DNA of 41,801 nt, from the NCBI GenBank assembly GCA_003696955.1, contig RFGU01000062.1:1-41801 (forward strand), written 5' to 3'. The translations under genes were made by a program, and so were the position numbers. A model generated the notes under the pieces. The model searched no databases and was not told the DNA's origin. It saw only the letters and a program-made list of their open reading frames with translations. Within the stretch, counting starts at the first letter, position 1, and the number at the start of each line of letters is the position of its first letter. Positions 15,655-41,614 of the stretch are shown here, in pieces. The stretch comes from Deltaproteobacteria bacterium. Its GTDB lineage: Bacteria; Myxococcota_A; Polyangia; Nannocystales; Nannocystaceae.

Positions 15655-15660
15655 TACGAT
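15655..15660 (+). promoter_or_regulatory. candidate -10 (TACGAT), giant repeat-protein gene
   Basis: TACGAT ends at 15660. It overlaps the first possible ATG (15659), which argues for the next in-frame ATG at 15683, 22 nt downstream, as the true start. Confidence 0.35.
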
Positions 15661-15682
15661 GGTGCGGGCCGGACCCCGCACG

Positions 15683-18600: not shown

Positions 18601-21600
18601 CCTCGCCGACCTCGCCGGCCCCGATGCGGCGTGCCACCCCGACCTGCTCGAAGCCTACGCATGGGCCGTCGAGACCTTGGGGATCGGCGAACGTGCGGTC
18701 GCCGCGTGCATCGATCACCTCTTCGACCGCCGCCGACTGCCGCCAGCCCTCGCCCGGCTCGCACGCCTCGAAGGCGACCCTCGAGCCCTCGGAAAACGCA
18801 TCGGCCGAGCCGTCGAGGCCCGCGGCGACGGCGGGGCGGATGCGCTGGCGGAGATCCTTGGAACCGCTCGACGGCTGCTCGGCCCACCGGATCACGCCGA
18901 GTTGCTGCTCGGCGTCGGCGATGCGCTGCCCGGTGCCGCCGTCGATCCGCACCTCGAAGCGTGCCTCGAAGCCCCACGAAGGCTCGCACCGCGCACGCTG
19001 GCGGACCTCGCCGTCGAGCTGCAACGACGGGGCCGGCTGCCCGCGGCGGCCCGTGGCGAACTTTCGACGATCCTGGCCGAGTTCGTCGCGCAGATGCCGA
19101 CGGAGCGCCACATCCTAAGGGCCCTGTGCGCCCTCTCCGACGGCACGCGTCCATCGACGGACGTCCGTGGCGTCATCGAGGCCATCGAACGACGCCGCCC
19201 GCTCGGCACGCTCGGCGCCCCTGCGGTCACGCAGATCCTGCTCGCCTGCTTCGAACGCGCACCGACACCGCAGGCTGCCGACGCCGTGGTCGATCTTGCG
19301 ACGACCCGGATGGACGACGACGAGGTGGTCGAAGCGTGCCTTTCGGTGCTTCGGGAGTGGAACACCCATCGACACGCCTGCGAACTCCTCGACCGACTCG
19401 CCAAGGCGCGCTCCGGTTCTGCCCGTGTGGACGTGCTCAAACGACTCGCCCACGTCCAACTGGATCTGCTCGGTCGAGAGGATCTGGCCTACGCGACCCT
19501 CGAACGGGCATGGCACGACGCGCCCGACGACCCGGACGTCCTCCTGTCCTTGTTCGACACGGCCGAAGCGTCACAGCGCTTGGCCGACGCCGCGCGTTGG
19601 ACGACGGAGATCCTGGAGCGTCTGCCCCTCGGTGCGGACGCGGCGTCGGACCTGGCCGGCCGGGGGTTCGACGCCGCCATCGCCTGTTTCGACCTGGACC
19701 GCGCTCGGCGGATCGCACGGTCGCTCGCACGGCGCCATCCCGACGCCGCCATGCTCGAGAACCGCGCGCGGGATCTCGCAGCGCTCGACGGTGACGCACC
19801 GGCCCGGCTCGACCTGCTCGAACGGGTTGCGCACCGTGCGTCTGGGGCTGCGGCCCTGGCCGCTCGCATCGAGCGGGCCGTACTGCTCCACGACGTCCGA
19901 GGCGCGACCACCGAGGCCCTTCGCGAGCTCGAGCGCGTCCGCGCCGAAGCCCCGGACCACATCGACGCCTTGACGGCCTCGATCCGGATCCTACGGGACG
20001 TAGGATCCGAGGTGGAACGCTTGCCGTTGCTCGAGCGGCTGGCCCCACGGCAGATGCCGGCCGAACGCGTGGAGACGCTACGAGAGATCGCCCGCATCCA
20101 TCGTCGCTGCCGCATGGACCTGGTGGCAGCCGAACGCACCCTGCGCCTTGCGCTCGACGCCGCATCCCACGGCGGCCTGTCGGACGACCGGACGGACGTG
20201 TTGGTGGAGGAGTTCATCGACGTCCTCGAGGAACAAGGGAGGATCGCCGATGCCGCCGCCTTCTTGGCGGGGCATCTCGCGGCCTTCCTCGACGACGGGA
20301 CCGAGGCGGAACCGGCCGGTGAGGTCCGCATGCGCTTGCTCGGGCGCCTCGCTCACCTGTACGCCCACGCCCTCGAGGACCGCGACCGAGCGGCGGTCAT
20401 CTACGAACACCTTGCGCGACACGGCGCATTGCCCGACGAGGGCTTTTCCGTCCTGGTTCGAAACTACCGCGATCGAGGTCGCTACGAGGACCTCTTGCGC
20501 CTCCTCGACGGCCGCGTCCGCGCGCTCAGGGCCACGGGCGACACCAAGCGGGCGGCGGATGCGGAGCAACTGGTGGCGGACGTACTCGAAGGGCCGCTCG
20601 GTCGTCCCCACGAGGCGGCGTATCGCTGGCTTTCGGCCTATCTCGAAGACCCGCCCGCACGCCAACACGCGGGGCGACGTGCCAGGGTTCTTCTGTCGGG
20701 CACCGATGCGGTGGCGAACGTGGCACGCAACGCCTCGTCCCTCGTGGCAAGCGCATCCAAGGGGTCGCAACCGTGGGGTTGGGCGCTGCTCGGAGACGTG
20801 CTCGCCCCCCACGAAGCCTTCGAGGCAATGGCGGAGACGTGCTACCTTCGGGTGCTCGACATCCATCCGGACTTCGAGCCGGGACGATTCGGTCATGGAC
20901 GCCTGCTGGCACGACAAGGGCGGCTCGACGAGGCGTGGCAATCCCTCGCGCCCCTCGGCCGGCCCCAGGGTCCGGCGGCAGCCCGCCTTGGCGACCACGA
21001 TCGGGCTCAAGCCGTCGCCCTGGCGGCCCGCATCGGGGTTCGGATCGGCCGTCTGGCGGATGCGGAGGCCCTGCTGCGCGCTCACCTCGATGCCTACGGC
21101 CCGTCGGAACGCGTGCTGTGGGAACTTTTGCGCATCCACGAACGGCAAGGACGACGAAAGGCCCAGGCCGAAGTCCTCGAGCGCCTGGCCGCTTTGCCGC
21201 TTGCGGCCATGTTGCGCGCCGAGGTGTCGTATCGTCGCGCCCGACTGCTCCTCGACGGTGAACCGGACGATTCCACGGCGGAGCGCGCCCGCGTTCTCCT
21301 GCTCGAGGCCGTCACCGCCGATGCACGTCACGCCGACGCCCGCAAGTGCCTGGCCGCCCTCGCCCGGGACCGGCGCGACTGGACCACCTACGCCCAGACC
21401 CTCTTCCTCGGCGTGCGGGAACTCGAGCCCTCCATCGAGCGAGCGCGGCTGCAGGCCGAACTCGCGGAAGTCTACGCCCGGCACCTCGACGACCCCGAGA
21501 GCGCGCGAAGGAACATCGACGCGGCCCTCGCGTCGGCCCCCGACGACGAGGTGGTCCTCGAACGCCTTCACCGCGCGGTCGCCACGGTGGTGCGGCCGGC

Positions 21601-24166
21601 CAAGATGGCCGCGGCCCTCGCCCGCGCCGCCGACGGTCCGAGCGAACGATCGGAACGCAGCCGAGCCGCCATGCTACTGCTTGCCGCGCGCCTGTACCTG
21701 CGGGACGACGACCTCGTGGCGGCAGAGGACGCGGCGCGGCGCGCCCTCGCCCACGTCGAACCCCACGACGTCATCGCCAGGCGGGCCCGAGCGTTGCTCT
21801 CGGAGATCGACCGGATCGACCATCGCGATCTGAGGACCGAACGCGCGACGCTGCGACGATGGCTCGAGACGGAAGACGACCCGGAAGAGCGAGCGAACAT
21901 CCAACTGCGCCTTGCGGAGGTGTGCCTTTCCCTTGCGGACGGGCCCGCGGCGCGTGCCGTGTTGCGTGATGGCATCGCCGAGCACTGGCGCGGCGAGGCC
22001 CCCGGGCGCGCAGCACCACTCGTGCGCCTCTTGGCGGAACACGGCCTCGCGCCCGACGCGGCCCACCACGTTCTGCGCGTGTTCGAGCAATTGGCCGCCT
22101 CCCTGCCCGCACCGGCCGGCGGCCTCGCCCACGTCGAGGCGGCCAAGATCGCCATCCGTCTGCGACGCACCGAGGCCGCAGCCGCCCACGTCGCCGCCGC
22201 CGCCGACGCCGACGACCGGCCCACGCGCCTGGCCGTGGCCTCGTGCCTCGAGGCGTGGGTCGAGGGACTCGACGCCGGCCTCGCTCGGGATCTGATCGTC
22301 GCCATGGGCGACGGCGCCATGGCCGTGGCGTCCTCGAGTCCCCCGGCCGCCGTGGGGATCGGTCGATTGGCATCGGTCGCCGGCCTCCACGACCGAGCCG
22401 TCCGCCTGTTGACCTGCGGTCTCGCAGCGGCCCGCGAGCAACCGACGGCCGTCGACGCGCTGCGGGCCCTCGCCGAGGCCCACCGTGCCGCCGACCGACC
22501 GGGCGATGCCCTCGAAGCGCTGGTGCGGGCCCACGAGACCGCCGCTCGGGCAGCCCCTACGCGCCTCGCCGAGCTGACGAACGCTCTCGTGGGGTTGGCG
22601 AGCGACCTCGGGCGTGACGACGTGGCGTTCGAGGCCCTCGGTCGCGCGTTCGCAGCCGGCGTGGTGGAATATCCGTGGATCGCCTGGCTCGAGCGCCTGG
22701 CCACGCGTCTCGATCGCCCCGTGGAGGCCATCGCGTGGCTCTCGGGCGTCCTCGGGGGCGGGCGCCGCCCCCCGGACGTGACGGCCGAACTGCTCCGCGC
22801 CCGTGCGGAGTGCATCGTCGAGCATCCCGTGGCGTGTGGCGTGTCCGATCCCGTGGGCGAGGCCTACCGGGACCTGTGCCGTGCCTTCGAGATCGACCCG
22901 GCCCACCGCGGGGTCCAGTCTGCGCTGCTCCCCATCGCCTTCCGCCGCAGGGATTGGGCGCGGGTCCAGGCCTGCGCGGTCGGTCGCGCCGTCGACCCGG
23001 CGGACCGCGCCGCCACCGTGCTCGGTGGCCTCGCCATGGCCGTCTTCGAAGGCCGTAGCGAATGGGCCCTTTCCCACCCGCCCCTTCGCGACGAAGAACG
23101 CAGGACCCCGGCGGTGGGAGATGCACTCCTCGACGCCCTCCTGGCCGTGGCGGAGGCCGGCCCCCTCGCCCACCTCGACGCGGTTCTGCGGGCGGCCTCC
23201 CACCTCTTCGGGGGCACGTCGAACCTGACCGCGGAGCTCGACCGACTCGCCCGGCTCCACCCGGATCACGCCGGGGCCATCCTCGCCCTGGCACGGATCG
23301 ACGAGACGAAGCAGGCGACGGCCCGAGCCCATCTGCGCTATCAGTGGGCGGCGTTCTTGGCGCCCTCCGGTCCGTTGCCCGCCTGGGTGCGCACCCTCCC
23401 CACTCCAGGCCCGGGCCCATGGCCGCCCCAGCCCTACGCCCACACGGCCAATCTCCCCGGAGCACTCCTCGCGGCGATGGCCCATGCCCCCGGTCTCGGG
23501 CGCACGGACGAGGGGCGGACCGCCTCGGCCGCACGACCGCGGTACCCGGACCTCGTCGACCTCGCCCGTCAGCTCCTATCCGCCCTACGTGGCCAGCAGG
23601 CACCGCCCGACGTCCGCGTCGTCGAACGGGCCGGCCCACGCCCCGTCGACGTGCCGTTCGGCCGGCCAAGCCCGATCTTCGTGGACGTCCGGGCCGCCGA
23701 TCTTCCTCCCGAAGCGTTCCAAGCCGCCCTGGCGGTGGCCTCCGTGGCCGCCCGAACGGGGCTCGGCCCCGTGATCTCCGCGGGTTCCCCCGCCCTCGTG
23801 GACGTCCTCGACGCCTTGAACCACGTCCTCGATCCCCGGTACCGACCAGCCTCCGAGGCAGCCGCCGAACTCGCACGCCGTTGGTCGGCGGATCCCACCT
23901 TCGTCAAGCGGATCGCGGGCACGCCCGATGCGCGTCGGCGACTGACCGACGAGATCCTGGCCGTTCTCGCGTCGCCCGAGACTCTCGACGACACCGTCGG
24001 TCGTTTGCGGCACTACGTCTGGGTGGAGGCGATCCGCGCGGGCGCCCGCCTCGACGGTCTCCTCGCCTGGATCCTCGGCCGAACCCCGCAGGACCCCGGT
24101 GCGGCGCGACGCGCTTCCCACGCGCCCCCCGTCGCGCCCCTCGTCCGAGCGCTGGACCTGCTTTGA
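15683..24166 (+). CDS. giant helical-repeat (TPR-type) protein of about 2,827 residues
   Basis: A single uninterrupted gene of 8.5 kb. The first 220 or so residues are beta-rich, with SLWLERGSLGLSVTDV, VHVWWVDVTCRAFRLEASL and two close Cys in LSCDGCSV. From about residue 260 to 2600 the protein is almost wholly paired Ala/Leu/Arg/Glu-rich helices, recognisable as degenerate TPR-like repeats. Clearer units are EDLAYATLERAWHDAPDDPD, RRNIDAALASAPDDEVVLER and DRPGDALEALVRAHETAARA. The last 200 or so residues are a distinct domain from RPVDVPFGRPSPIFVDVRAA to the Leu-Leu end. No signal peptide or transmembrane segment is seen, so it is probably cytoplasmic. Start choice: ATG 15683, with 15659 possible. 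Very large TPR proteins occur in myxobacteria and most are uncharacterised. A scaffold role is inferred; I do not recognise a specific family. Confidence 0.72.
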   Translation: MARLHPRGSHWLPEAPPRFSLWLERGSLGLSVTDVPLPSGAHVRAYRARLLVPRPSGRVELRPSAYRTARTAAESLAVELGRTDDGPSNAAGTPYAPCFVARPGRPPLVAGFEVAAGGRATVHVWWVDVTCRAFRLEASLRHVLSCDGCSVSYREDGGAPAGTAVFMGLFGDERGPWRIGDAGRPVVDLRPLVAALHVRAGFRPPSSFDAGLGGVTVAGDRFVASVGTRAAVVPDTSADADAMASELAGHVRRMIGGDVRPVARHMARDGLGPLAVRFAQVILWAQGGRASPKAHEAAEALAEGDARQTAHLRRLELAGGHLEAAASRLSDFGRRADRELGVAASAARVSLLARTGRDDRTAEAQLAEAIEDGALSNATRSMAARALAAAYADTNPVEAARFALEALRLAPERRLEPTMAGLVVRAGVSDRQVAERLADPDVCEATLTAASDVAPADLAAVVRAVARWANDAVVRRLAGCLPQSQEVASALWDAVEARGLDAAPLAPWLDLLPGTERPRAAAAVARALLAHDDPRAAAAVADAHGDAHDDWGPLARDIAEACVAAGAPDVAWRVVEGHLQPYETLTAPLVRLALERLEHPAEPLLARADALGVVTEAYALERMDASRSLPPAERVGVLLDWADRLAPGAGAIATARRHLVEALGETGADLAPATARRAAAWLVVHVDPKTPASEALAALTAAADLGALEDAARAAATWSAHPSSEGPAATVALAGARWAFDAGALELALQLVEAPVTDTAGEDAAVLHLEIAGAAGDVEAFVRALARIAATAPPPARYVEHLEPLDRLEGAHRLRAVELLTAAVSKSLPTVAPAAPIFDRLADHLSAFFASTKDLPEGAGAVLAHLCPLDRDVAWPARRPVASRLRVAYLAGEGEVQRALCIALRALVHLEADTELERAVVALAEGPAMTADLAWAPILEAVASLPSARVRDGCVLALGRLAASRAEPEACLHLADLAGPDAACHPDLLEAYAWAVETLGIGERAVAACIDHLFDRRRLPPALARLARLEGDPRALGKRIGRAVEARGDGGADALAEILGTARRLLGPPDHAELLLGVGDALPGAAVDPHLEACLEAPRRLAPRTLADLAVELQRRGRLPAAARGELSTILAEFVAQMPTERHILRALCALSDGTRPSTDVRGVIEAIERRRPLGTLGAPAVTQILLACFERAPTPQAADAVVDLATTRMDDDEVVEACLSVLREWNTHRHACELLDRLAKARSGSARVDVLKRLAHVQLDLLGREDLAYATLERAWHDAPDDPDVLLSLFDTAEASQRLADAARWTTEILERLPLGADAASDLAGRGFDAAIACFDLDRARRIARSLARRHPDAAMLENRARDLAALDGDAPARLDLLERVAHRASGAAALAARIERAVLLHDVRGATTEALRELERVRAEAPDHIDALTASIRILRDVGSEVERLPLLERLAPRQMPAERVETLREIARIHRRCRMDLVAAERTLRLALDAASHGGLSDDRTDVLVEEFIDVLEEQGRIADAAAFLAGHLAAFLDDGTEAEPAGEVRMRLLGRLAHLYAHALEDRDRAAVIYEHLARHGALPDEGFSVLVRNYRDRGRYEDLLRLLDGRVRALRATGDTKRAADAEQLVADVLEGPLGRPHEAAYRWLSAYLEDPPARQHAGRRARVLLSGTDAVANVARNASSLVASASKGSQPWGWALLGDVLAPHEAFEAMAETCYLRVLDIHPDFEPGRFGHGRLLARQGRLDEAWQSLAPLGRPQGPAAARLGDHDRAQAVALAARIGVRIGRLADAEALLRAHLDAYGPSERVLWELLRIHERQGRRKAQAEVLERLAALPLAAMLRAEVSYRRARLLLDGEPDDSTAERARVLLLEAVTADARHADARKCLAALARDRRDWTTYAQTLFLGVRELEPSIERARLQAELAEVYARHLDDPESARRNIDAALASAPDDEVVLERLHRAVATVVRPAKMAAALARAADGPSERSERSRAAMLLLAARLYLRDDDLVAAEDAARRALAHVEPHDVIARRARALLSEIDRIDHRDLRTERATLRRWLETEDDPEERANIQLRLAEVCLSLADGPAARAVLRDGIAEHWRGEAPGRAAPLVRLLAEHGLAPDAAHHVLRVFEQLAASLPAPAGGLAHVEAAKIAIRLRRTEAAAAHVAAAADADDRPTRLAVASCLEAWVEGLDAGLARDLIVAMGDGAMAVASSSPPAAVGIGRLASVAGLHDRAVRLLTCGLAAAREQPTAVDALRALAEAHRAADRPGDALEALVRAHETAARAAPTRLAELTNALVGLASDLGRDDVAFEALGRAFAAGVVEYPWIAWLERLATRLDRPVEAIAWLSGVLGGGRRPPDVTAELLRARAECIVEHPVACGVSDPVGEAYRDLCRAFEIDPAHRGVQSALLPIAFRRRDWARVQACAVGRAVDPADRAATVLGGLAMAVFEGRSEWALSHPPLRDEERRTPAVGDALLDALLAVAEAGPLAHLDAVLRAASHLFGGTSNLTAELDRLARLHPDHAGAILALARIDETKQATARAHLRYQWAAFLAPSGPLPAWVRTLPTPGPGPWPPQPYAHTANLPGALLAAMAHAPGLGRTDEGRTASAARPRYPDLVDLARQLLSALRGQQAPPDVRVVERAGPRPVDVPFGRPSPIFVDVRAADLPPEAFQAALAVASVAARTGLGPVISAGSPALVDVLDALNHVLDPRYRPASEAAAELARRWSADPTFVKRIAGTPDARRRLTDEILAVLASPETLDDTVGRLRHYVWVEAIRAGARLDGLLAWILGRTPQDPGAARRASHAPPVAPLVRALDLL

Positions 24167-31149: not shown

Positions 31150-31323
31150 TCAGGTGCCGTTCGAAGTGGGCCCGTCGGTACCCGCCCGGCGGGCGGCGCG
31201 GCGCCTTCGGGCCGCGGCCCGCTCGTCCTGCGCGATCTCGGCCGCGCGGCCCCCGAGCACGAACCCGATGACGATCCCGAGCAGCAGCACCCCGGGGATG
31301 TAGACGAAGTGGGCCAGAGTCAC
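31150..31323 (-). CDS. 57-residue single-pass membrane protein at the end of the ccm cluster
   Basis: This small gene starts at GTG 31323, overlapping the ccmD stop in a GTGA junction. That coupling is the main reason to believe it. The product begins VTLAHFVYIPGVLLLGIVIG, forming one transmembrane helix (about 5-26) that ends FVLGGRAAEI. A very basic tail with ARRRRAARRAG follows, so the tail should be cytoplasmic. I do not recognise a named family. Its place as the last gene of ccmB-ccmC-ccmD suggests a small subunit or stabiliser of the CcmABCD haem-release complex, in the way CcmD is; this is inference from context. Confidence 0.65.
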   Translation of the reverse strand: MTLAHFVYIPGVLLLGIVIGFVLGGRAAEIAQDERAAARRRRAARRAGTDGPTSNGT

Positions 31324-31595
31324 GACTCGGAGGCTCCGTCGGAGAGGGAGGCGAGGTCTCGCCGCAGGCGCACGACCCGCCGATAGAGGTAGAGCACGTA
31401 GAGGGTCACCACCGTCCACAGGATCCCGTAGGCCCAGACGATGTGGGCGTAGTCCGAGGCCGTCTTGGCGGCGGCGCGGGCCTCGATCTGGCGCTCGAGT
31501 TCGATGGAGGCCAGGTCGCGCCCGACGACCGGCTCGTACGCGTCCTGGCCGCCCGGTGGCGCCGGTTGGGTGGTGGCAACGATGCGGTGGGTCAT
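31320..31595 (-). CDS. ccmD: CcmD-family haem exporter subunit
   Basis: This 91-residue protein has one transmembrane helix at about 52-72 (HIVWAYGILWTVVTLYVLYL) followed by YRRVVRLRRDLASL. That is the CcmD pattern: a helix with conserved Tyr/Ala/Trp followed by a basic, Leu-rich amphipathic tail. CcmD retains CcmC and frees haem-loaded CcmE. The N-terminal extension of about 45 residues is longer than in enterobacterial CcmD. Start choice: ATG 31595, 6 nt after GAGG; the adjacent GTG 31598 is possible. The gene lies 9 nt after the ccmC stop. Confidence 0.78.
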   Translation of the reverse strand: MTHRIVATTQPAPPGGQDAYEPVVGRDLASIELERQIEARAAAKTASDYAHIVWAYGILWTVVTLYVLYLYRRVVRLRRDLASLSDGASES

Positions 31596-31604
31596 CACGA
31601 TCCT

Positions 31605-32279
31605 CTAGGAGCTTGCCGGATCGGACCGGGCGAGGAACAGGTCGTCGAGCTGCTGCTCGGCGCGTTCGACGTGGTAGCGCACGGCCACGAGGCCGGCCAC
31701 GCACGCAGCGATGGGCGCGAGCGCGAAGAACAAGGTTCGCCACATGGACGGCGGCAAGGTCCCGACCACGTCGGTCGTTGGATGGGTCGTCTTCCAGACC
31801 TTGACCGCGTAGTAGATGACGGGCACGTCCAGGGCGCCGAAGGCGGCCAGGCCCGCAGCCAGGCGCTCGGTTCCGGCCGCCCCCTGGGTGCGCAGGAGGA
31901 CGAAGGCGCAGAACACGAGAAAGAGCAGGGCCGTGCTCACCTGCCGCGCATCCCAGGTCCAGGGCGTTCCCCACGTGGCATGGCCCCAGATGGGACCGGT
32001 CAGGAGGACGCACAGCCCCGTGACGAGCACCACCTCGCCCGCGGCCAGGCTCAGCGCCTCGGCACGGCGCGAGTTCCGCAGCAGTTGCACCGCCGCCGCG
32101 ACCCCGGACACGATCGCCGCAAGCATCATGCACCACGCCATCGGGACGTGGAAGTAGAAGATCTTCTGGACGGTCCCCATCTCGCGTTCGATGGGGGTGT
32201 CGAGGAAGACGCGAGCGACGGCCAGCGGAAACCACACCGCGGCCACGCACAACAGCACACTCCAGAGGATCCGGATCAT
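31605..32279 (-). CDS. ccmC: haem-handling protein CcmC
   Basis: This 224-residue inner-membrane protein has six hydrophobic helices. It carries the tryptophan-rich WWD motif, WGHATWGTPWTWDARQVS, that holds haem at the periplasmic face. Two flanking His candidates are present, in FYFHVPMAW and KVWKTTHPTT. CcmC loads haem onto CcmE. ATG 32279 overlaps the ccmB stop as ATGA, so translation is coupled. The frame continues open upstream within ccmB, without homology. Confidence 0.92.
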   Translation of the reverse strand: MIRILWSVLLCVAAVWFPLAVARVFLDTPIEREMGTVQKIFYFHVPMAWCMMLAAIVSGVAAAVQLLRNSRRAEALSLAAGEVVLVTGLCVLLTGPIWGHATWGTPWTWDARQVSTALLFLVFCAFVLLRTQGAAGTERLAAGLAAFGALDVPVIYYAVKVWKTTHPTTDVVGTLPPSMWRTLFFALAPIAACVAGLVAVRYHVERAEQQLDDLFLARSDPASS

Positions 32280-32989
32280 CGGCGCCTCCGTTGGGTCCGA
32301 CCGGACGGGATCGGGACGACGACCGACTCGAACACGAAGGTCGCCATCGATAGCAACAGGACCGCCACGGCCCAGACCTGGCCGACGTAGACCGCCGCCT
32401 TCGCATGGCCCTCGATGAGGGCCCGCGTGGCGACGAGGGCGAAGAGCAGCACGGGCGCCGTCAGCGGATACAGGACGACGCCCAACAGGACGCCCCGGGT
32501 GCGATCGGTCGCAAGGGCCGAGGCGAAGACCGCCCCTACGGCGACGTAGGCCAAGGACGCCCCCACGACGAGGAGCGCGAGCAGCAGGGGGCGATCGAAG
32601 AGGGCGGCCGCTTCGGGGAACAGAAACCGAAGGCCCGCGAGCTGCACGGCGGCACAGGCCACCACGACACACGTCCCCACCAGGGCCTTGGCCCCGTAGA
32701 TCGCCAGGCGTTCGACAGGGGCGACCAGCAGGGCGACGAAGGTCTCGTGCTCCCGCTCGCGCTCGAACAACCGGGTGAGCGCCAGGCTGCCGACGAAGGC
32801 CACGGAAAGCCACAACATGGCCGGCAACGACGCGCGCAACGCCTCGCCGCGCAGGGTGCCGAAGCCCACCCCGAACAGGGCCAGCACGACGACGTCGAAG
32901 AACAGGGCCGTCGCGAGCACCTCGAGATGCCGGACCTCCTGGAGCAGATCGTTGCGGGCGAGCAGCAGCGTTTGGCGGAGGCCGCGCAC
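32276..32989 (-). CDS. ccmB: ABC transporter membrane subunit CcmB
   Basis: This 237-residue protein has six transmembrane segments and is the permease partner of CcmA. Landmarks are LLLARNDLLQEVRHLE (about 9-24), FEREREHETFVALLVAPV and RTRGVLLGVVLYPLTAPVLL, which match the family. Start: GTG 32989 gives an N-terminus like that of known CcmB proteins; there is no ATG in range and no strong ribosome site. A TTG further upstream is a less likely alternative. The gene is divergent from the plus-strand secreted-protein gene and is cut off from ccmA by two opposite-strand genes. Confidence 0.85.
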   Translation of the reverse strand: MRGLRQTLLLARNDLLQEVRHLEVLATALFFDVVVLALFGVGFGTLRGEALRASLPAMLWLSVAFVGSLALTRLFEREREHETFVALLVAPVERLAIYGAKALVGTCVVVACAAVQLAGLRFLFPEAAALFDRPLLLALLVVGASLAYVAVGAVFASALATDRTRGVLLGVVLYPLTAPVLLFALVATRALIEGHAKAAVYVGQVWAVAVLLLSMATFVFESVVVPIPSGRTQRRRR

Positions 32990-33078
32990 GGCGGCCCAGA
33001 TGTAGCACAACCTGCGCCGCGGGGGTGCCCTTCCGAGCCTCCCGCCCCGCGGTGGAAGACGCTCCACGCCGGCCGCGT

Positions 33079-33084
33079 TAGGAT
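33079..33084 (+). promoter_or_regulatory. candidate -10 (TAGGAT), secreted-protein/beta-lactamase-like operon
   Basis: TAGGAT lies 13 nt before ATG 33098 and overlaps the alternative ATG 33083, which favours the later start. It sits in the 108-bp spacer shared with ccmB. Confidence 0.3.
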
Positions 33085-33097
33085 GGTCACGACCTTC

Positions 33098-34330
33098 ATG
33101 CACCGTCCCGTTCGGATCCCGTCTTCGAGTCGTCGCCTGGCCGCCGTGCTGCTTTGCGCGTGTACGTTGGGAGGGCCGGCCCAGGCCGAACCCCAGCCCC
33201 CGCCCCGGGCACCGGTGTCGGCGCCCGATCCGCGCCCCATGGCGGATGGCCGCGTCGAGGTGGGCGACGCGACACCTCCGGCACCGTCCGACGAGGTCTT
33301 GGACCACGCCGCCGTGGAAGGCGTTACCGAGCGCATCGAAGCCGGCGCGGCCCTTCCCCCGTCGTCGCAGCGGCAAGACCCCTCCTCCCATGGTCTGGGC
33401 CCCCTCGACGCGGCCACCCGTCGTTCGTTCGAGGCGATCCCCTCCGACCCGCCGCCCCCGTCGTTGACCCGCAACTCCCACTACTGGGTCTCGAACGAGC
33501 ATTCCCACTTCCTGTGGCACGATGCCATCGCCGGCGTGGGGGGTGGATACGTTGGCGTGGGCACCGACCAGAACTACCTGCTGGCCGCATGGGCGCGCAG
33601 CGAGATCGTGGTCCTGATGGACTTCGACGAAGCGATCTCCGACCTCCATCGGGTCTATGGCCTGCTGTTCTCGGATGCGCAGACCCCCGAGGACTTCGTG
33701 GCATCGTGGCGCCCCGATGCCGCGCCCCACGTCGAGGCCCGCATCGCCCTGGTCTACGCCGACGATCCCCGCCGCGAGGACATCCTGCGCGCCTTTCGCC
33801 GCAGCCGAAAACTCGTCTACGCACGCCTCCGTCGCGTGGTGCGGACCTACCGCAAGCGGGGGATCGGGACGTTCCTCACGGATCGAGAGCAGTACGACCA
33901 CGTTCGCGACCTGTGGCGAAACGGCCGCGTCTTCCCCGTGCGCGGCGACCTGACGGGCGACGCGACCATGCGGGGCATCGCCCGCGCCTTCGCGCAGGCC
34001 AACGTCCCGGTGAACGTCCTGTACCTGTCCAACGCCGAGCAGTACTTCGACTATGGGCCTTCGTTTCGGCGCAACATCGTGGAACTTCCCTTCGGCCCCC
34101 ACGCCGTCGTGCTGCGCACCCTCGGGTGGTCCGGCCACGGATTCGTCGAGGGCGAGGAGTATCACTACAACGTCCAGCCTGGGGACAACTTCGCAACGTG
34201 GATGCGAACGCGACGCGTGCGCTCGGCGGGGTTGATGCTCTCGCGCAAACGCTCGACGGACGTACCGGGTTCGTCGATCCTCGACCACGTGCCCACTCCT
34301 TCCAAGCGCCCGCCCGAACTCGCGTTGTGA
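33098..34330 (+). CDS. secreted protein of unknown function (possible LIC_10091-like family)
   Basis: This 410-residue protein has an N-terminal export signal: basic RIPSSSRRL, hydrophobic AAVLLCACTLGG, then PAQA/EPQ. Either signal peptidase I cleavage or lipidation at the second Cys is possible. A Pro-rich linker (about 25-115) leads to a compact domain. That domain contains NSHYWVSNEHSHFLWHDAIA, GGGYVGVGTDQNYLLAAWAR and SEIVVLMDFDEAISDLHRVY, suggesting a Rossmann/methyltransferase-like start, and later VPVNVLYLSNAEQYFDYGPS. From memory this resembles the uncharacterised LIC_10091-like secreted family; no enzyme activity is known to me. The start ATG 33098 is preferred over 33083. The gene is coupled by a GTGA overlap to the following serine-hydrolase gene. 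Confidence 0.6.
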   Translation: MHRPVRIPSSSRRLAAVLLCACTLGGPAQAEPQPPPRAPVSAPDPRPMADGRVEVGDATPPAPSDEVLDHAAVEGVTERIEAGAALPPSSQRQDPSSHGLGPLDAATRRSFEAIPSDPPPPSLTRNSHYWVSNEHSHFLWHDAIAGVGGGYVGVGTDQNYLLAAWARSEIVVLMDFDEAISDLHRVYGLLFSDAQTPEDFVASWRPDAAPHVEARIALVYADDPRREDILRAFRRSRKLVYARLRRVVRTYRKRGIGTFLTDREQYDHVRDLWRNGRVFPVRGDLTGDATMRGIARAFAQANVPVNVLYLSNAEQYFDYGPSFRRNIVELPFGPHAVVLRTLGWSGHGFVEGEEYHYNVQPGDNFATWMRTRRVRSAGLMLSRKRSTDVPGSSILDHVPTPSKRPPELAL

Positions 34331-35745
34331 TCGGAATTGCACGCGATGCACGACGCGCCCTCGGGCCGTGGGCGGCCGTCGCGATGGCGGCAGCTTGTGC
34401 GCGCCCGCCGCCGCCGCCGGACGCCCCCGCCGCACCAACCGCACCTGCGCCGCAGGCGCGTCGTGTTGTGGCCCATGGTGCCGACACGACGCCGTCACGG
34501 GATCGGGCCGAACCGGCCCGTTCGATCCCGCCGGCCCGCGATGCCGCGGAGGTCCCGGTCGGCGACTTCGACATGGCCCCCCTCCTCGACCGCGTTCGAC
34601 AGCGCCACCCCAAGCTCGCGGCCTCCCCGGAGACGTACCGGTTCGAGATGCTCTTGACCTGCATCGACGAGGACGACGGCGTCCCGCACGTGGCCCAAGG
34701 ACGTTTTCGCACGGACACCGAGTACGTCTACCCGGCCAGCGCGATCAAGTTGTTCGTCACGGCCGCGGCCCTCGCCTTCGTGTCGAAGGCCCGGCGCGGC
34801 GTCCCCGGACTCGACTGGGACGCCCCGTTGGCCCGATGCACCGCCTCGGGCGCATGCACGTTCGTCGAAGATCCCTCGAATCGGCTGCCGCCCCACGCCG
34901 GCATCGCCACCATCGGACACCTGGTGCGACGCGTGCACCTGGTTTCCGACAACGTTGCCTACAACACCCTCTACGACGTGGTCGGCCACGAGGAACTTCA
35001 CCGATGGGCATGGGACGCCGGCCTCGCAAGCTTGCGCGTCCACCACCGGATGTTCTCGTGGGCCCCCGCCGAGGTGCAACGGACGACCCCCGCCTTCCGC
35101 ATCGGTACGCCGCCGCACGTGGTCGCGATCCCACGGCGCACGAGCGACCTCGATCTTCCTCCGCTCCCCTTCGCGTCCACGGCGGTGGGGACCGCGCACG
35201 TCGATCCCCGCACCCGGCGTCGGGTCGCCGCCCCCATGGACTTCTCGACGAAGAACTACGCGAGCCTCGAGGACCATCACCGGCTCATCCTCTCCCTCGT
35301 GCGGCCCGACCTGCGCGCCGCATCGTCCCTGGGCCTGATCGATCCGGGGATCGACGACGATCTGCGCGAGCGCCTGGTGGCCGCCATGACCGAAGATCCG
35401 AACGCCTCCGCCGATCCCGCCTATCCCCCTCCCCATCGTGGAAAGACGGCGTTCAAACCCTTGTTGCCCGGTATCGTGCGCGTGGTGCCGGAGTCGGAGA
35501 TCGCCTACGCCAACAAGGCCGGTCGTGCCTACGGATTCCACGTGGAGAACGCCGTCATCCGGTACCGTGCCAGGACGGCGGCAGTGACGGTCTCGGTGTA
35601 CGGCAACGAAGACGGCGTGGTCAACGACGACCGCTACGACTACGACACGGTGACACGGCCGGTTCTCGCCACGGTGGGCGAGGCCGTGGCGGCCACCTGC
35701 CTCGCGTCCGCCGCCCCTGCTGCAGCGGCTACCCGAGGCCCCTGA
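34327..35745 (+). CDS. beta-lactamase/DD-peptidase-fold serine hydrolase, probable lipoprotein
   Basis: This 472-residue protein starts at GTG 34327 inside the previous stop (GTGA). A short signal with AMAAAC near residue 24 suggests a lipoprotein. A long Pro/Ala linker to about residue 75 follows. The catalytic domain shows class A-like order: S138AIK (nucleophile Ser138 and Lys141, in YVYPASAIKLFVTAAALAF), S207DN in HLVSDNVAYNTLYD, and K397AG in YANKAGRAYG in place of KTG. No ExxLN omega-loop, with its deacylating Glu, is seen between SDN and KAG. The segment between them is much longer (about 188 residues) than in true beta-lactamases. Resistance activity is therefore unlikely; a peptidase, esterase or non-catalytic role is open. 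The gene converges on ccmA and overlaps its 3' end by 17 bp. Confidence 0.78.
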   Translation: MIGIARDARRALGPWAAVAMAAACARPPPPPDAPAAPTAPAPQARRVVAHGADTTPSRDRAEPARSIPPARDAAEVPVGDFDMAPLLDRVRQRHPKLAASPETYRFEMLLTCIDEDDGVPHVAQGRFRTDTEYVYPASAIKLFVTAAALAFVSKARRGVPGLDWDAPLARCTASGACTFVEDPSNRLPPHAGIATIGHLVRRVHLVSDNVAYNTLYDVVGHEELHRWAWDAGLASLRVHHRMFSWAPAEVQRTTPAFRIGTPPHVVAIPRRTSDLDLPPLPFASTAVGTAHVDPRTRRRVAAPMDFSTKNYASLEDHHRLILSLVRPDLRAASSLGLIDPGIDDDLRERLVAAMTEDPNASADPAYPPPHRGKTAFKPLLPGIVRVVPESEIAYANKAGRAYGFHVENAVIRYRARTAAVTVSVYGNEDGVVNDDRYDYDTVTRPVLATVGEAVAATCLASAAPAAAATRGP

Positions 35746-36463
35746 CCGGGGCCTCGGCCGTGCCGAGGGCGTCGGAAAGACGCGCGGCGAAGGATGCCTC
35801 CGGTGCCCGGTCCACCCGTGCCCGCACCCGGCCCTGCTCGAGGCACACGACCCGATCGGCGAGCGAGGCGTGCACCTCGGGATCGTGGGAAGAAAGGAGC
35901 ACGGCGGCCCCCTCCTCGACGAGGCCATGGATCGCAGCGGTCACCAGCCGGCGACCGCTCGCATCGAGGGCCGTCATCGGCTCGTCGAGCAACACGAGCT
36001 GCGGGCGACCGACGAGGACCCGCGCGAAGGAAAGTCGCTGCGCCATGCCCCGGGAGAAGGTCCGCACCGGCTCGGTGGCGCGTTTTTCGAGCCCCACGCG
36101 CTCCAGAGCCGCACGCGGGTCGGCGGACGCAAGTCCCAAGGACCGCCGCAGCCGTACGAGCAGCGCGAGGTTCTCCTCCGCCGAAAGCCACGGGTACAGA
36201 TGGGTGCCATGGGCCATCCAGCCGAGGCCGCCGCGCGCCCGTGGATCGACGAGACGGCGCGGATCGCCGGCCCATGTACAGCACCCGTGGGACGGCACCT
36301 CGAGCCCGGCCGCGATGCGCAACATCGTCGTCTTTCCGGCGCCGTTCGGTCCCCAAAGGCCCACGACGGTGCCGCGCCGCACCTCGAGGTCGATGCCCCG
36401 CAGCGCCCACGTTCTCCCATAGGCTCGACCGACGTCCTCGAAGCGAAGCGGCAACAGGTCCAC
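35729..36463 (-). CDS. ccmA: haem-exporter ABC ATPase CcmA
   Basis: This 244-residue nucleotide-binding subunit powers release of holo-CcmE from CcmC. It has Walker A GPNGAGKTT, signature FSRGMAQRLSFARVLVG (SRGMAQR replaces LSGGQQQR, which is usual for CcmA), Walker B LVLLDEP followed by MTALDASG, and the switch His in LLSSHDPEV. It starts at GTG 36463, 4 nt after the stop of the 701-residue gene, hence in the ccmE-ccmF operon. Its own partner ccmB lies 2.7 kb away beyond two plus-strand genes. It ends inside a 10-bp-stem hairpin shared with the converging gene. Confidence 0.9.
   Translation of the reverse strand: MDLLPLRFEDVGRAYGRTWALRGIDLEVRRGTVVGLWGPNGAGKTTMLRIAAGLEVPSHGCCTWAGDPRRLVDPRARGGLGWMAHGTHLYPWLSAEENLALLVRLRRSLGLASADPRAALERVGLEKRATEPVRTFSRGMAQRLSFARVLVGRPQLVLLDEPMTALDASGRRLVTAAIHGLVEEGAAVLLSSHDPEVHASLADRVVCLEQGRVRARVDRAPEASFAARLSDALGTAEAPVRGLG
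35733..35757. terminator. 10-bp stem hairpin at overlapping convergent gene ends
   Basis: Arms CCGAGGCCCC (35733-35742) and GGGGCCTCGG (35748-35757) pair perfectly across the loop TGACC, which contains the stop codon of the beta-lactamase-like gene. The same DNA encodes the last codons of ccmA. No T-tract follows, but stability and position fit a bidirectional terminator. Confidence 0.5.
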
Positions 36464-36467
36464 GGCG

Positions 36468-38573
36468 TCACGGCTCCGTCGTCGTGCCGCCTTCGGTCCC
36501 CTCCGGGCCGGTCCCGTCGGACGCTCCCCCCTCCGATCCGGCGGCAGATGGATCGCCCGTGGCCCCCCCGCCCTCGCCGTCGCCGCCTTCGCGCCCCGTC
36601 TCGACGGCGGCTCCCGCCGATGACCCGGATGCATCGTCCCCGGCCTGGCGCACCGGCGCGGCAGGCGACGCCGCGGTCGACGAGGCATCCGGGACGCCCA
36701 AGTCCGCCAGGGTCCGTGAGATCCGATCGATGGCGACGAGCAGCTGTTGTCGCTCGGCGGGATCGCTGGAGGCAAGGTACCGTTCGGCCAGCGCCTTGCG
36801 CTGGGCGAGCAACTCGAGTCGCAGATCCCGTCGGCGCCCGGCCATGGCCCCCCACATGGCCCCGCCGAGCAGGATCGCAGCACCGCCCAACGCCACGTTG
36901 CGCCAAATCTTCGGGCGCGTCGGCAGCCCCGCAACGGCGAAGGAGACCTCGGCACCGGCCGGACGCTCCCCGAGTTCGTACAGTCGCACGGGCCGTGCCG
37001 GATCGGGATGGGGCGGTGCCTTGCCGGCCACCTTGGGCGAGGCGAGATCGAGCGCCTCGGGCAGCACCACCGACGCCTGCACCACGCCGAACGGAGGACG
37101 CCACGATAACTGCACCTGTCCGTCATGGGGCAGGAGATAGGCGATGGACAGATCGACGAGTTCCCCCGGGGGCAGCGGGCCCGACACCACGGCGAACGGG
37201 GCGTCCTCGCGCTCTTCGAGGAACCGGCCGGCGGATGGCAGGACCGTCACCGATCGTGCGCCCTCGGGTGCCTCGATGCGAAAGACGCCCGACGACGGCC
37301 AATAGGCCCGGCCGCCTTCCACCATCGCCTGGTACACCTGCACCACCTGCGCCATGTCCTTCTCGCGCGGCAAGATCTCGAACTGCACGGCGCTACGCAC
37401 GACGGCCGGGTCGCTGGTCGTCTCGAACACCCGCAACCCGAGGCGCACCCCGGCCGTCTGCTCCATGCGGAAGAAGGAACTCTGGTAGGGACCGCCGCCG
37501 TAGACCGCGCCCACGAAGTAGAGCGCATCCTCCTGCACGGGGACGCCTTCGATCCGCGCGACGCCGTCGGGGCCGGTTCGGCCGCGGATCTCCTCGTCGT
37601 TGCCGGCCCGATCCTTCTTGAAGACCGACACGGGCAGGTCCGGCACCGGCGCTCCGCTGCCGTCCTCGACGGCCACTCGCACGGTACCCGCAGGAAGGGC
37701 GGGATCGATCCGCGGCGGTTCCACCGGCGGCCGCGTCGCCGGACGAGCCCCGTGGGCCGCCTGGGCGTCGAAGCCCTCGGCGAGGTAGACGGCCTTGGCC
37801 GTCTCCCCCATGCGAAACGTCTGGGAGCGCTGGGGCTCGCCGCCTTCCGCGATCACGGCCTCGACGACGAGTTCGGCCTCGGCGGGCACCTCCGGAGGAC
37901 GCAGGCCCTCGAACGTGGCGCGCCCCTGCGCATCGCTCCTGGCCGTGCGCGTCTCCTCCCGTCCGTCGGGGTGTCGAATCCGAAGGGTGACGACCCGCCC
38001 CTCGGCCCGCCCCTCCTGCCCCTTGCGCAGATCGAGGGTGCCGACCACCAGGGTTCCCGGCGGGCGCCCTTCGAGGTCGAAGGGTTCACCGGGAGCCGGC
38101 ACCCGATCCGGGGCGGCGTGCCCGGGCGAGGCGCCCTGCCCCGCTCCCGCCACCAGCAGAAGGCGCGTCCCGGCGTCCGCACGTAGGGCGAAGGGGCGCG
38201 AGACGACCGGCTCGCCGCCCAAGTCGGCACGGGCCGTCGCCTTGCGACCGACGAAGTCCTCGAGCCCTTCGAAGGTCGCCCGGCCCACCGCGTCGGTCGT
38301 GGCCGTGCGTCGGGTCGCCCCGTCCGGCCCGTCGATCTCCAGGGTGACCTCGGTGCCGACTGCCGGCGCGTCGAAGCCACCGAGGAGACAGCGCACCGTC
38401 ACGACCCCCGGTGCGAGCGCGGGGTCGGGCCGCGCGATCCCGGACATGCGACGCGGGTCGATGGCCGGCCCGGCATGCACCGGCACCGCGAGCGCCCAAA
38501 GGAACACGCCGACGAGCCACCACACCACGGCCCACCGTCCGAGGGGGGATGCCAAGAACCTCGTGCGCGTCAT
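36468..38573 (-). CDS. 701-residue membrane protein with repeated beta-sandwich domains, in the ccm operon
   Basis: An N-terminal signal or anchor (about 12-35, WAVVWWLVGVFLWALAVPVHA) is followed by three carboxypeptidase-regulatory/Ig-like beta domains. Each has a D-x-x-G-R/V-A-x-(F/I)-E-G turn (TTDAVGRATFEGL, RSDAQGRATFEGL, RTGPDGVARIEGV). Next come a larger beta region (about 330-540), one transmembrane segment (about 552-572, NVALGGAAILLGGAMWGAM), and a cytoplasmic helical stretch starting RRRDLRLELLAQRKALAERY. The tail is Gly/Glu/Ser/Thr-rich. Most of the mass should be periplasmic. No catalytic motif or CxxC/CxxCH haem motif is seen. ATG 38573 overlaps the zinc-ribbon gene stop as ATGA, and ccmA starts 4 nt after its stop. 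An accessory role in cytochrome c maturation is inferred from this coupling only. Confidence 0.7.
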   Translation of the reverse strand: MTRTRFLASPLGRWAVVWWLVGVFLWALAVPVHAGPAIDPRRMSGIARPDPALAPGVVTVRCLLGGFDAPAVGTEVTLEIDGPDGATRRTATTDAVGRATFEGLEDFVGRKATARADLGGEPVVSRPFALRADAGTRLLLVAGAGQGASPGHAAPDRVPAPGEPFDLEGRPPGTLVVGTLDLRKGQEGRAEGRVVTLRIRHPDGREETRTARSDAQGRATFEGLRPPEVPAEAELVVEAVIAEGGEPQRSQTFRMGETAKAVYLAEGFDAQAAHGARPATRPPVEPPRIDPALPAGTVRVAVEDGSGAPVPDLPVSVFKKDRAGNDEEIRGRTGPDGVARIEGVPVQEDALYFVGAVYGGGPYQSSFFRMEQTAGVRLGLRVFETTSDPAVVRSAVQFEILPREKDMAQVVQVYQAMVEGGRAYWPSSGVFRIEAPEGARSVTVLPSAGRFLEEREDAPFAVVSGPLPPGELVDLSIAYLLPHDGQVQLSWRPPFGVVQASVVLPEALDLASPKVAGKAPPHPDPARPVRLYELGERPAGAEVSFAVAGLPTRPKIWRNVALGGAAILLGGAMWGAMAGRRRDLRLELLAQRKALAERYLASSDPAERQQLLVAIDRISRTLADLGVPDASSTAASPAAPVRQAGDDASGSSAGAAVETGREGGDGEGGGATGDPSAAGSEGGASDGTGPEGTEGGTTTEP

Positions 38574-39154
38574 GTCGCGAGCTTCTCTCCGCAGTGCTTG
38601 CAGAATCGCGCGTCCGCATCGTTGGCACCGTTGCAGGACGGGCACGCACGCAACGGCGTGGAAGGCTCGGTCGCAGCCGTGCCGCCTTCCGGCTCGCCCG
38701 GGATCCGTCCGGTCTCGGCCAACGCCCGCGCCCACGGGTGCAAGGACGCCGGCTCGTCGAGTGCCCTCAGGACCTCGGCGGCACGCCGCTCGTACCGCGC
38801 CCGGATCGAACGATGATCCGCATCGGACAACTTGCCCATGGCGTGATCGAAATCGAGTTCCTTGATCGCCGCGAGCACCCGCCGCTTCTCCTCGAGCAGT
38901 TCCCGATAGGTCGATCGAGCAAGGCCCGTGCCCGCCATCGCCACGGCCTCGGCCTCGCTGCGGGCGAGGGCCTCGGCCACCGAGAAGAGCCGCGCCACGA
39001 GGTGCACCAGGCTGGCCGCTGCGACCGAAAGTCCCGCCGTCGCCGCGTCGGGGGCCACTCCGCCCACGAGCACCATGCCGGCGAACGTCGCGAGGAAGAC
39101 GACCGCCCCGGCAATCCACCACCGAAGGTCGCGATGGGATCTCCGTTCAGCCAC
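38570..39154 (-). CDS. zinc-ribbon membrane protein with CcmI-like helical segment, in the ccm operon
   Basis: This 194-residue protein has a first transmembrane helix (about 12-31) and probably a second hydrophobic segment (about 38-58). A charged helical region at about 78-130 contains LLEEKRRVLAAIKELDFDHA and MGKLSDADHRSIRARYERRA. The pattern of E-L-D-x-D-x-x-x-G-K-L-S-x-x-D resembles the segment after the first helices of CcmI/CycH-type proteins. The C-terminus is a zinc ribbon with C171PSC174 and C185KHC188. It starts at GTG 39154, overlapping the ccmF stop by 8 nt. No periplasmic LRCxxC of CcmH is present. The topology suggests the ribbon is cytoplasmic. The function is unknown; a link between CcmF and other maturation parts is inferred. 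Confidence 0.7.
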   Translation of the reverse strand: MAERRSHRDLRWWIAGAVVFLATFAGMVLVGGVAPDAATAGLSVAAASLVHLVARLFSVAEALARSEAEAVAMAGTGLARSTYRELLEEKRRVLAAIKELDFDHAMGKLSDADHRSIRARYERRAAEVLRALDEPASLHPWARALAETGRIPGEPEGGTAATEPSTPLRACPSCNGANDADARFCKHCGEKLAT

Positions 39155-41191: not shown

Positions 41192-41614
41192 TCAGCGGGT
41201 CTCTTTCAGATCGACGCCCTGCTCTTCTTCGTACTTCGAGGGGCACTTGGCCGTCATCTCGTCCGACTCGAACACGGTACCGTCGGCCGAAAGACGCCCG
41301 GTCAGGATGACCTCGCCCCCCTCCTGGAAGGTGTCGGGCACGAGATTCGTGTAGTGGACGGAAAGACGCTTGCCGGCGTGTTCGATGACGAAGCGGTAGT
41401 CCCCCGTCGATCCTCGCTTCTGTCGGATCGTTCCGGGGACGACCGTTCCGTGGACCTTGATCGTCCGGTCGGCAAAATCCTCGGGCCGATCCACCACCTG
41501 CTCGACGTAGACGTATTCGAGCACGCCCTGCCCCGTGTCCGAAAGGGCCAGATAGCCCACCGAGCCTACGAGGGCGAGTCCGAGTACCATCTTCGTGCCT
41601 ACGGATAGGGCCAT
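41192..41614 (-). CDS. ccmE: haem chaperone CcmE, Cys-type (CxxxY) variant
   Basis: This 140-residue protein has one N-terminal transmembrane helix (about 8-25) and a periplasmic OB-fold domain with VYVEQVVDRPEDFADRTIKV, VHGTVVPGTI and GEVILTGRLSADGTVFESDE. The haem-binding site follows: MTAKC124PSKY128. Classical CcmE has HxxxY with the His covalently bound to haem; here Cys takes that place. The CxxxY form is known from archaea and some bacteria whose System I lacks CcmH. ATG 41614 has GGAGG about 6 nt upstream, inside the end of the preceding gene (1-nt gap), so it is not the first gene of its operon. Confidence 0.92.
   Translation of the reverse strand: MALSVGTKMVLGLALVGSVGYLALSDTGQGVLEYVYVEQVVDRPEDFADRTIKVHGTVVPGTIRQKRGSTGDYRFVIEHAGKRLSVHYTNLVPDTFQEGGEVILTGRLSADGTVFESDEMTAKCPSKYEEEQGVDLKETR

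Follow-up and report, generated by a model that had tools for sequence, protein, structure and literature searches.

Systems with a cysteine in place of the haem-binding histidine of CcmE are known as System I*, the variant Ccm of archaea, Desulfovibrio and others, for which Allen 2006 and Goddard 2010 are said to be the primary papers. According to a 2011 review (PMC3601427), the name covers systems with a Cys-type CcmE, and CPSKY is the commonest form of the motif, found in 25 of 36 genomes, mostly of delta-proteobacteria together with some Chloroflexi and Firmicutes. The same review attributes a CcmH to about one third of the System I* genomes and calls its absence not characteristic, a looser definition than the original one of 2006, by which CcmH is absent (PMC3601427). 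Two described machines come close to this type. The archaeal CcmABCEF machine of Methanosarcina acetivorans has a CXXXY CcmE that is needed for haem attachment and lacks CcmD, CcmH and CcmI (PMC9084895), and the sulfate-reducer variant of D. vulgaris is described as being without CcmH and CcmG.

Here we analysed a window, i.e. one whole stretch of DNA of 41,801 nucleotides, from a Nannocystaceae (Myxococcota) genome, labelled G000 in the following. Its ccm locus shares with System I* the CxxxY CcmE and CcmA, B, C and F, and a candidate CcmD gives a weak match. A CcmH is present in the genome, which departs from the 2006 definition and is compatible with the looser one of 2011 (PMC3601427). Judged by the descriptions that were accessible, the system is set apart from System I* by a CcmH without LRCxxC and by an operon that adds a zinc-ribbon CcmI-like and an Ig-like protein. 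The presence of CcmH also distinguishes it from the D. vulgaris variant, and that of CcmH, CcmD-like and CcmI-like proteins from the machine of M. acetivorans (PMC9084895). We consider it likely that the product of 41192..41614 acts as haem chaperone in a System I* machine with an unlinked, remodelled CcmH and with two accessory proteins replacing CcmI.

The Cys-type CcmE and its operon

The features of the locus are as follows.

41192 to 41614, minus strand: ccmE, 140 aa with ATG start, Cys-type, probable haem chaperone (Pfam PF03100, E 4.5e-23)
41231 to 41245, minus strand: haem-attachment motif C124-P-S-K-Y128, Cys replacing His, read directly from the codons
39147 to 41189, minus strand: ccmF, 680 aa, with the WGGYWAWDP (WWD) segment (PF16327, PF01578, TIGR00353 E 3e-127)
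38570 to 39154, minus strand: zinc-ribbon membrane protein, 194 aa, with a coil like the N-terminal part of CcmI followed by a zinc ribbon (zinc-ribbon profile matches)
36468 to 38573, minus strand: Ig-like membrane-anchored protein, 701 aa (only partial CarboxypepD_reg matches)
35729 to 36463, minus strand: ccmA, ABC ATPase (PF00005, E 8e-26; TIGR01189, E 1e-35, slightly below cut-off)
32276 to 32989, minus strand: ccmB (PF03379, E 3e-13)
31605 to 32279, minus strand: ccmC, with the segment WGHATWGTPWTWDARQ (PF01578, E 3e-17)
31320 to 31595, minus strand: ccmD-like single-helix protein, 91 aa, positioned after ccmC (TIGR04391 CcmD_alt_fam, E 0.019, below cut-off)
31150 to 31323, minus strand: single-helix protein, 57 aa, overlapping the end of the ccmD-like gene (known from sequence only)

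The original prediction that residues 124 to 128 of this protein read CPSKY in place of HxxxY is borne out by the open reading frame, the PF03100 match and the TGC codon of residue 124 (ACG GCC AAG TGC CCC TCG AAG TAC GAA, giving TAKCPSKYE), which all agree. The 140-aa product ends in FESDEMTAKCPSKYEEEQGVDLKETR, and its best match in the PDB is 2KCT (E 1.1e-6), the CxxxY CcmE of D. vulgaris, which belongs to the same OB-fold family and carries a KCPxxx motif at low identity. Alignment of related CcmEs, proposed together with that reading, corroborates it: the KCPSKY motif is kept in G094, a separate assembly from the same genus, and in G099, which belongs to the same family, and KCPS is invariant among 16 diverse Cys-type CcmEs. 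Since the motif is conserved in these same-genus and same-family genomes, Cys124 is not a base error. The peptide AKCPSKYE moreover occurs in 438 stretches across 84,980 species genomes, and 434 of these stretches code for a relative of CcmE, so that a sequencing error at the Cys codon is excluded in practice. On a separate contig (L103:2273-2764), G099 additionally encodes another CcmE-like protein, whose motif is KCPETY.

In G000 (4.36 Mb in 268 contigs, 94.5% complete) this CcmE is the sole copy, and the whole-genome search of this 94.5%-complete assembly revealed no HxxxY CcmE elsewhere; the single Cys-type CcmE thereby differs from the HxxxY protein of classical System I. Its nearest relatives, with 64-79% protein identity, are encoded in metagenome-assembled genomes labelled Polyangiaceae, Nannocystaceae and Myxococcales, followed by those of Nannocystis, Enhygromyxa, Paraliomyxa and Plesiocystis (54-60%) and then of Acidobacteriota (35-44%). 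In line with this, the CcmF of the window groups with Nannocystaceae in the CcmF tree. In 2011 the Myxococcota were still placed in the delta-proteobacteria. As CPSKY CcmEs had by then been reported mostly from delta-proteobacteria (PMC3601427), the Cys-type CcmE described here adds one more member to a known kind. What the original prediction presented as an extension of the variant to Myxococcota thus stands as a Cys-type System I* in that phylum, with Nannocystaceae as the nearest named relatives, and is not clearly an extension of its range.

On the minus strand, the operon runs in the order ccmE, ccmF, zinc-ribbon gene, Ig-like gene and ccmA, all tightly packed or overlapping. After two plus-strand genes it continues with ccmB, ccmC, the ccmD-like gene and the 57-aa gene, the last of which, going by its sequence, may be part of the operon. 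The two plus-strand genes between ccmA and ccmB (32405-35745) encode a class A beta-lactamase-fold domain (PF13354) and a DUF7790 protein. An open frame of 2835 aa without Pfam match extends from 15659 to 24166 on the plus strand of the window and may be either a real giant protein or a spurious frame in GC-rich DNA. The initial reading took ccmA to ccmF as all recognisable, which holds for CcmA, B, C, E and F and only weakly for CcmD, its match staying below the cut-off; neither ccmG nor ccmH is visible inside the window, just as that reading had it, and no CcmH domain is fused to the C terminus of the window CcmF. ResB of System II is absent from G000, the ResB profile matching only the CcmF C terminus. 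A profile search of the genome returned nine cytochrome-c-domain matches, from which it follows that c-type cytochromes are made.

A remodelled CcmH elsewhere in the genome

The whole-genome search found exactly one CcmH in G000, on contig C192 (PF03918 match at 1758-2144, E 4e-14).

C192:1755-2168: ccmH, 137 aa, single-helix protein, unlinked from ccm (PF03918, 54 bits versus a cut-off of 25)

The assumption that the organism has no CcmH is overturned by this protein and by its homologues in 23 of 25 further genomes, reached via named CcmE loci and nearly all from Nannocystaceae or close Myxococcota, with the complete Nannocystis poenicansa chromosome among those that encode one. The retention of CcmH in these relatives, one of them with a complete chromosome, also rules out contamination as the source of the G000 gene. 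The genome search that had been recommended for ccmH (with LRCxxC) and ccmG thus returned a CcmH without LRCxxC, and in the genome profile search no CcmG match rose above the dsbE cut-off.

The active-site region of the G000 CcmH reads ELMSPFCPGRTVASCPS. Among proteins of solved structure, phmmer places E. coli 2KW0 and P. aeruginosa 2HL7 closest to it, and it shares with both the PF03918 family and the position of the conserved second cysteine. The active-site stretch aligns without gaps (elmSpfCpgrtvasCps / elrCpkCqnnsiadSns; counterpart in E. coli 2KW0, ELRCPKCQNNSIADSNS). In contrast to classical CcmH, the first cysteine of LRCxxC is replaced by serine, the serine at +8 from the second cysteine is replaced by cysteine, and the gene is unlinked from ccm. 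The remodelling thus converts LRCxxC...S into LMSPFCPGRTVASC, with LMSPFCPGRTVASCPS at the LRCxxC site, and by motif reading as well as phmmer alignment the CxxC redox pair is absent from the protein. With only the second cysteine and the new one at +8, any intramolecular disulfide must be of the CX7C type. The Nannocystaceae-like CcmHs, that of Nannocystis poenicansa included, are of the LMSPYCPGRTI(A/S)(T/S)CPS or a close type. Their homology and, in G000, the sole-copy status of the gene suggest a role in cytochrome maturation.

In Nannocystaceae, ccmH lies away from the ccm genes and in nearly every genome fetched adjoins a gene for an FHA-domain protein, which in G000 has 569 aa (both genes lie in L003:1755-3947 of contig C192). 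Most of the Nannocystaceae CcmH ORFs (L001:1498-1911, L254-L276) show by inspection no obvious signal peptide before the CcmH domain, so that, provided the start codons are correctly placed, export of the N-terminal domain of CcmH would have to proceed without a cleaved signal. After the membrane helix these ORFs carry an Arg-rich sequence, and their acidic C-terminal tail, LDDALDEVDEF, is strongly conserved.

CcmH forms and accessory proteins across phyla

To place the Nannocystaceae proteins in a wider frame, we compared 142 genomes of the phylum that are at least 85% complete. CcmE was found in 133 and CcmH in 111 of them, and the CcmE residue was typed in 119. His-type CcmEs occur in 28 genomes from seven families, all 28 of which have an LRCxxC-type CcmH. 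Of the 91 genomes typed as Cys, 76 encode a remodelled CcmH, and a canonical CcmH never occurs as the only one. The remodelled forms comprise CX7C only (44 genomes), APCC...H (9), a multi-Cys form (18; LRCMCGDC..L..CAC or a similar motif, frequently as a fusion to the CcmF end) and combinations (5). One of the combination genomes, G119, has an extra canonical copy, located on a proteobacterial-looking contig, beside the remodelled one; a proteobacterial-looking ccmF-G-H-I stretch (L004) exists there besides the Cys-type CcmE and the CX7C CcmH and represents either contamination or transfer.

For 15 of the 91 Cys-type genomes no CcmH sequence is in hand. Five of these gave a match whose sequence was not recovered, one (G110) has a CcmF-fused multi-Cys CcmH domain below the profile threshold, and nine (six from family f13, two from f17 and one from f2) gave no CcmH match in the profile search. 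The CcmEs of f13 and f17 carry VKCPSRY and VKCPSKY, and these families are candidates for a true CcmH-less System I* within the same phylum.

Residue by residue, all 29 canonical CcmHs combine a Cys at -3 with a Ser at +8 from the conserved cysteine, an arrangement found in none of the 151 CcmH domains from Cys-type genomes. At +8, 121 of these domains have Cys and roughly a dozen have His; some few of the His assignments are alignment-ambiguous, and 12 of the 151 domains have another spacing.

The His-type genomes fall into a single clade of the CcmF tree, on which the His/Cys state changes once. Repeated independent co-evolution of CcmE and CcmH is rejected by this single split; CcmE residue, CcmH motif and accessory genes reflect one ancient split followed by common descent on each side. 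Among the Cys-type genomes the CcmH motif is variable, and CcmH occurs free, unlinked or fused to CcmF. The pairing suggests a functional coupling of CcmE residue, CcmH type and accessory genes, although, given the single change, it may also reflect shared ancestry and not mechanistic coupling.

For the two accessory proteins there is no specific family model in Pfam or NCBIfam. Homologues of the zinc-ribbon protein are encoded at 26 of 26 Nannocystaceae-group loci and at 45 of 54 other (Acidobacteriota-group) CcmE loci. Its coil-region model also matches the N-terminal part of the proteins in CcmI position in His-type genomes, and the Metabacillus homologue matches TIGR03142 CcmI with E 0.0013, below the cut-off. 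The protein may thus resemble the membrane-coil N-terminal part of CcmI, a protein from which it differs by having no match to a TPR domain; a zinc ribbon stands at the end instead, where the Bacillota proteins have nothing.

At E <= 1e-10, 83 of the 142 phylum genomes have a match to the Ig-like protein, among them not one of the 28 of His type, and in some families (f9, f30) it is fused to the zinc ribbon. The protein has a hydrophobic helix at its N terminus; its AlphaFold2 model (mean pLDDT 86) predicts three domains of Ig-like type, another beta domain and a long membrane helix, and a CcmI-like coil follows. A fold search gave generic Ig-like, adhesin and pilin matches, with TM-scores below 0.3 among the matches listed, and is uninformative for function.

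Both accessory proteins recur in Acidobacteriota and Bacillota and are thus shared across at least three phyla, other phyla having been sampled via CcmE matches and plasmid records only. At the Acidobacteriota loci with an AKCPSKYE CcmE, a multi-Cys CcmH domain is fused to CcmF. The CcmF-fused forms have five invariant cysteines, and the modelled domain is predicted to adopt a three-helix fold whose sole PDB match is 2HL7. System II is usual in Gram-positive bacteria such as Metabacillus and Cytobacillus. Complete Cys-type ccm operons are nevertheless present on Bacillota plasmids of 330-383 kb from these two genera (L348, L349). The plasmids, Metabacillus pB218 and Cytobacillus p1, encode ccmE-F-H-coil-Ig-A-B-C and tlpA in one run, with a KCPSKY CcmE and a CX8C CcmH (PPGCTDSMTADYC) whose gene sits directly between ccmF and the accessory genes; an annotated ccmD is present in the Metabacillus plasmid. 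In contrast, the Cupriavidus plasmid pHG1 encodes a KHDENY CcmE, a CcmH with LRCLVCQNQTLADS, CcmG and a TPR-containing CcmI. Neither the altered CcmH motifs nor the two accessory proteins are mentioned in the accessible part of the 2011 review (PMC3601427). A search of the accessible literature for CcmF with a zinc ribbon, or for a CcmF/CcmH fusion in Acidobacteria, gave nothing relevant. We therefore regard the remodelled CcmH motif and the two accessory proteins as provisionally new.

Proposed haem transfer and its alternatives

By analogy to the System I* biochemistry of Desulfovibrio and Methanosarcina, CcmABCD would load haem onto CcmE, where Cys124 would bind a haem vinyl group and Tyr128 would serve as axial ligand. 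CcmF, with the remodelled CcmH as likely partner, would then move the haem to the CXXCH motif of the apocytochrome, which the zinc-ribbon and Ig-like proteins would probably hold or present in place of CcmI. Candidate reductants of the apocytochrome thiols in G000 are a DsbD-type protein (DsbD_TM and a C-terminal thioredoxin with WCLPC), ResA/TlpA-like thioredoxins (best E 7.9e-18) and the altered CcmH. Electrons would probably reach CcmH from the DsbD-type protein and a ResA/TlpA-type thioredoxin encoded elsewhere in the genome; the thiols could stay reduced through the action of the DsbD-type protein on a ResA/TlpA-like thioredoxin. As the Desulfovibrio System I* needs no CcmH to function in E. 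coli (PMC3601427), the protein may be dispensable in G000 as well.

The role of the +8 residue of CcmH may be a different one. Possible, if doubtful, is a function of this Cys or His as a ligand and not as a redox partner, the remodelled CcmH coordinating metal or haem and helping to pull haem off the CcmE Cys thioether. The preponderance of Cys at +8, with His in about a dozen domains, and the five invariant cysteines of the CcmF-fused forms fit the coordination of metal or haem better than they fit a simple disulfide, and the Cys-haem thioether is described as hard to break (PMC3601427). The two cysteines of the Nannocystaceae CcmH, however, are too few for a zinc site alone; it is the +8 His of some relatives and the invariant cysteines of others that keep the idea alive.

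We regard it as unlikely that the system is a strictly CcmH-less System I*, in which CcmF alone finishes haem transfer and the CcmH-like protein of contig C192 has another job, e.g. with its FHA-domain neighbour. Such a division of labour would fit the window without ccmH, the conserved position of the Nannocystaceae gene beside the FHA-domain gene and not beside ccm, the G000 ORF without obvious signal peptide (by inspection) and the existence of f13 and f17 genomes that have a Cys-type CcmE without a CcmH match. It is at odds with the retention of CcmH in 23 of 25 related genomes, with the CX7C or CcmF-fused multi-Cys CcmHs throughout the Cys-type genomes and with the Bacillota gene order, where ccmH is directly flanked by ccmF and the accessory genes. 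Improbable as well is that Cys124 carries haem non-covalently, as reported for the closest solved relative, 2KCT of D. vulgaris, which binds ferric haem via Cys (PMC3884852), given that the D. desulfuricans CcmE binds haem covalently (PMC3601427) and that haem attachment to the M. acetivorans CcmE requires the CXXXY motif (PMC9084895).

We thus return to a System I* machine with an unlinked, remodelled CcmH and two accessory proteins. Beyond the single locus, we tentatively propose that Cys-type bacteria possess a separate and ancient type of cytochrome c synthase, in which LRCxxC...S of CcmH became C-x7-C/H and CcmI gave way to the zinc-ribbon and Ig-like proteins, a set which would have been co-inherited across Myxococcota, Acidobacteriota and Bacillota and would be needed for the release of haem from a Cys thioether instead of from His. 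In these bacteria the Cys-type system has CcmH rebuilt and not lost, which corrects the simple picture, and searches that depend on LRCxxC, or that look at the operon only, will not find the remodelled CcmH.
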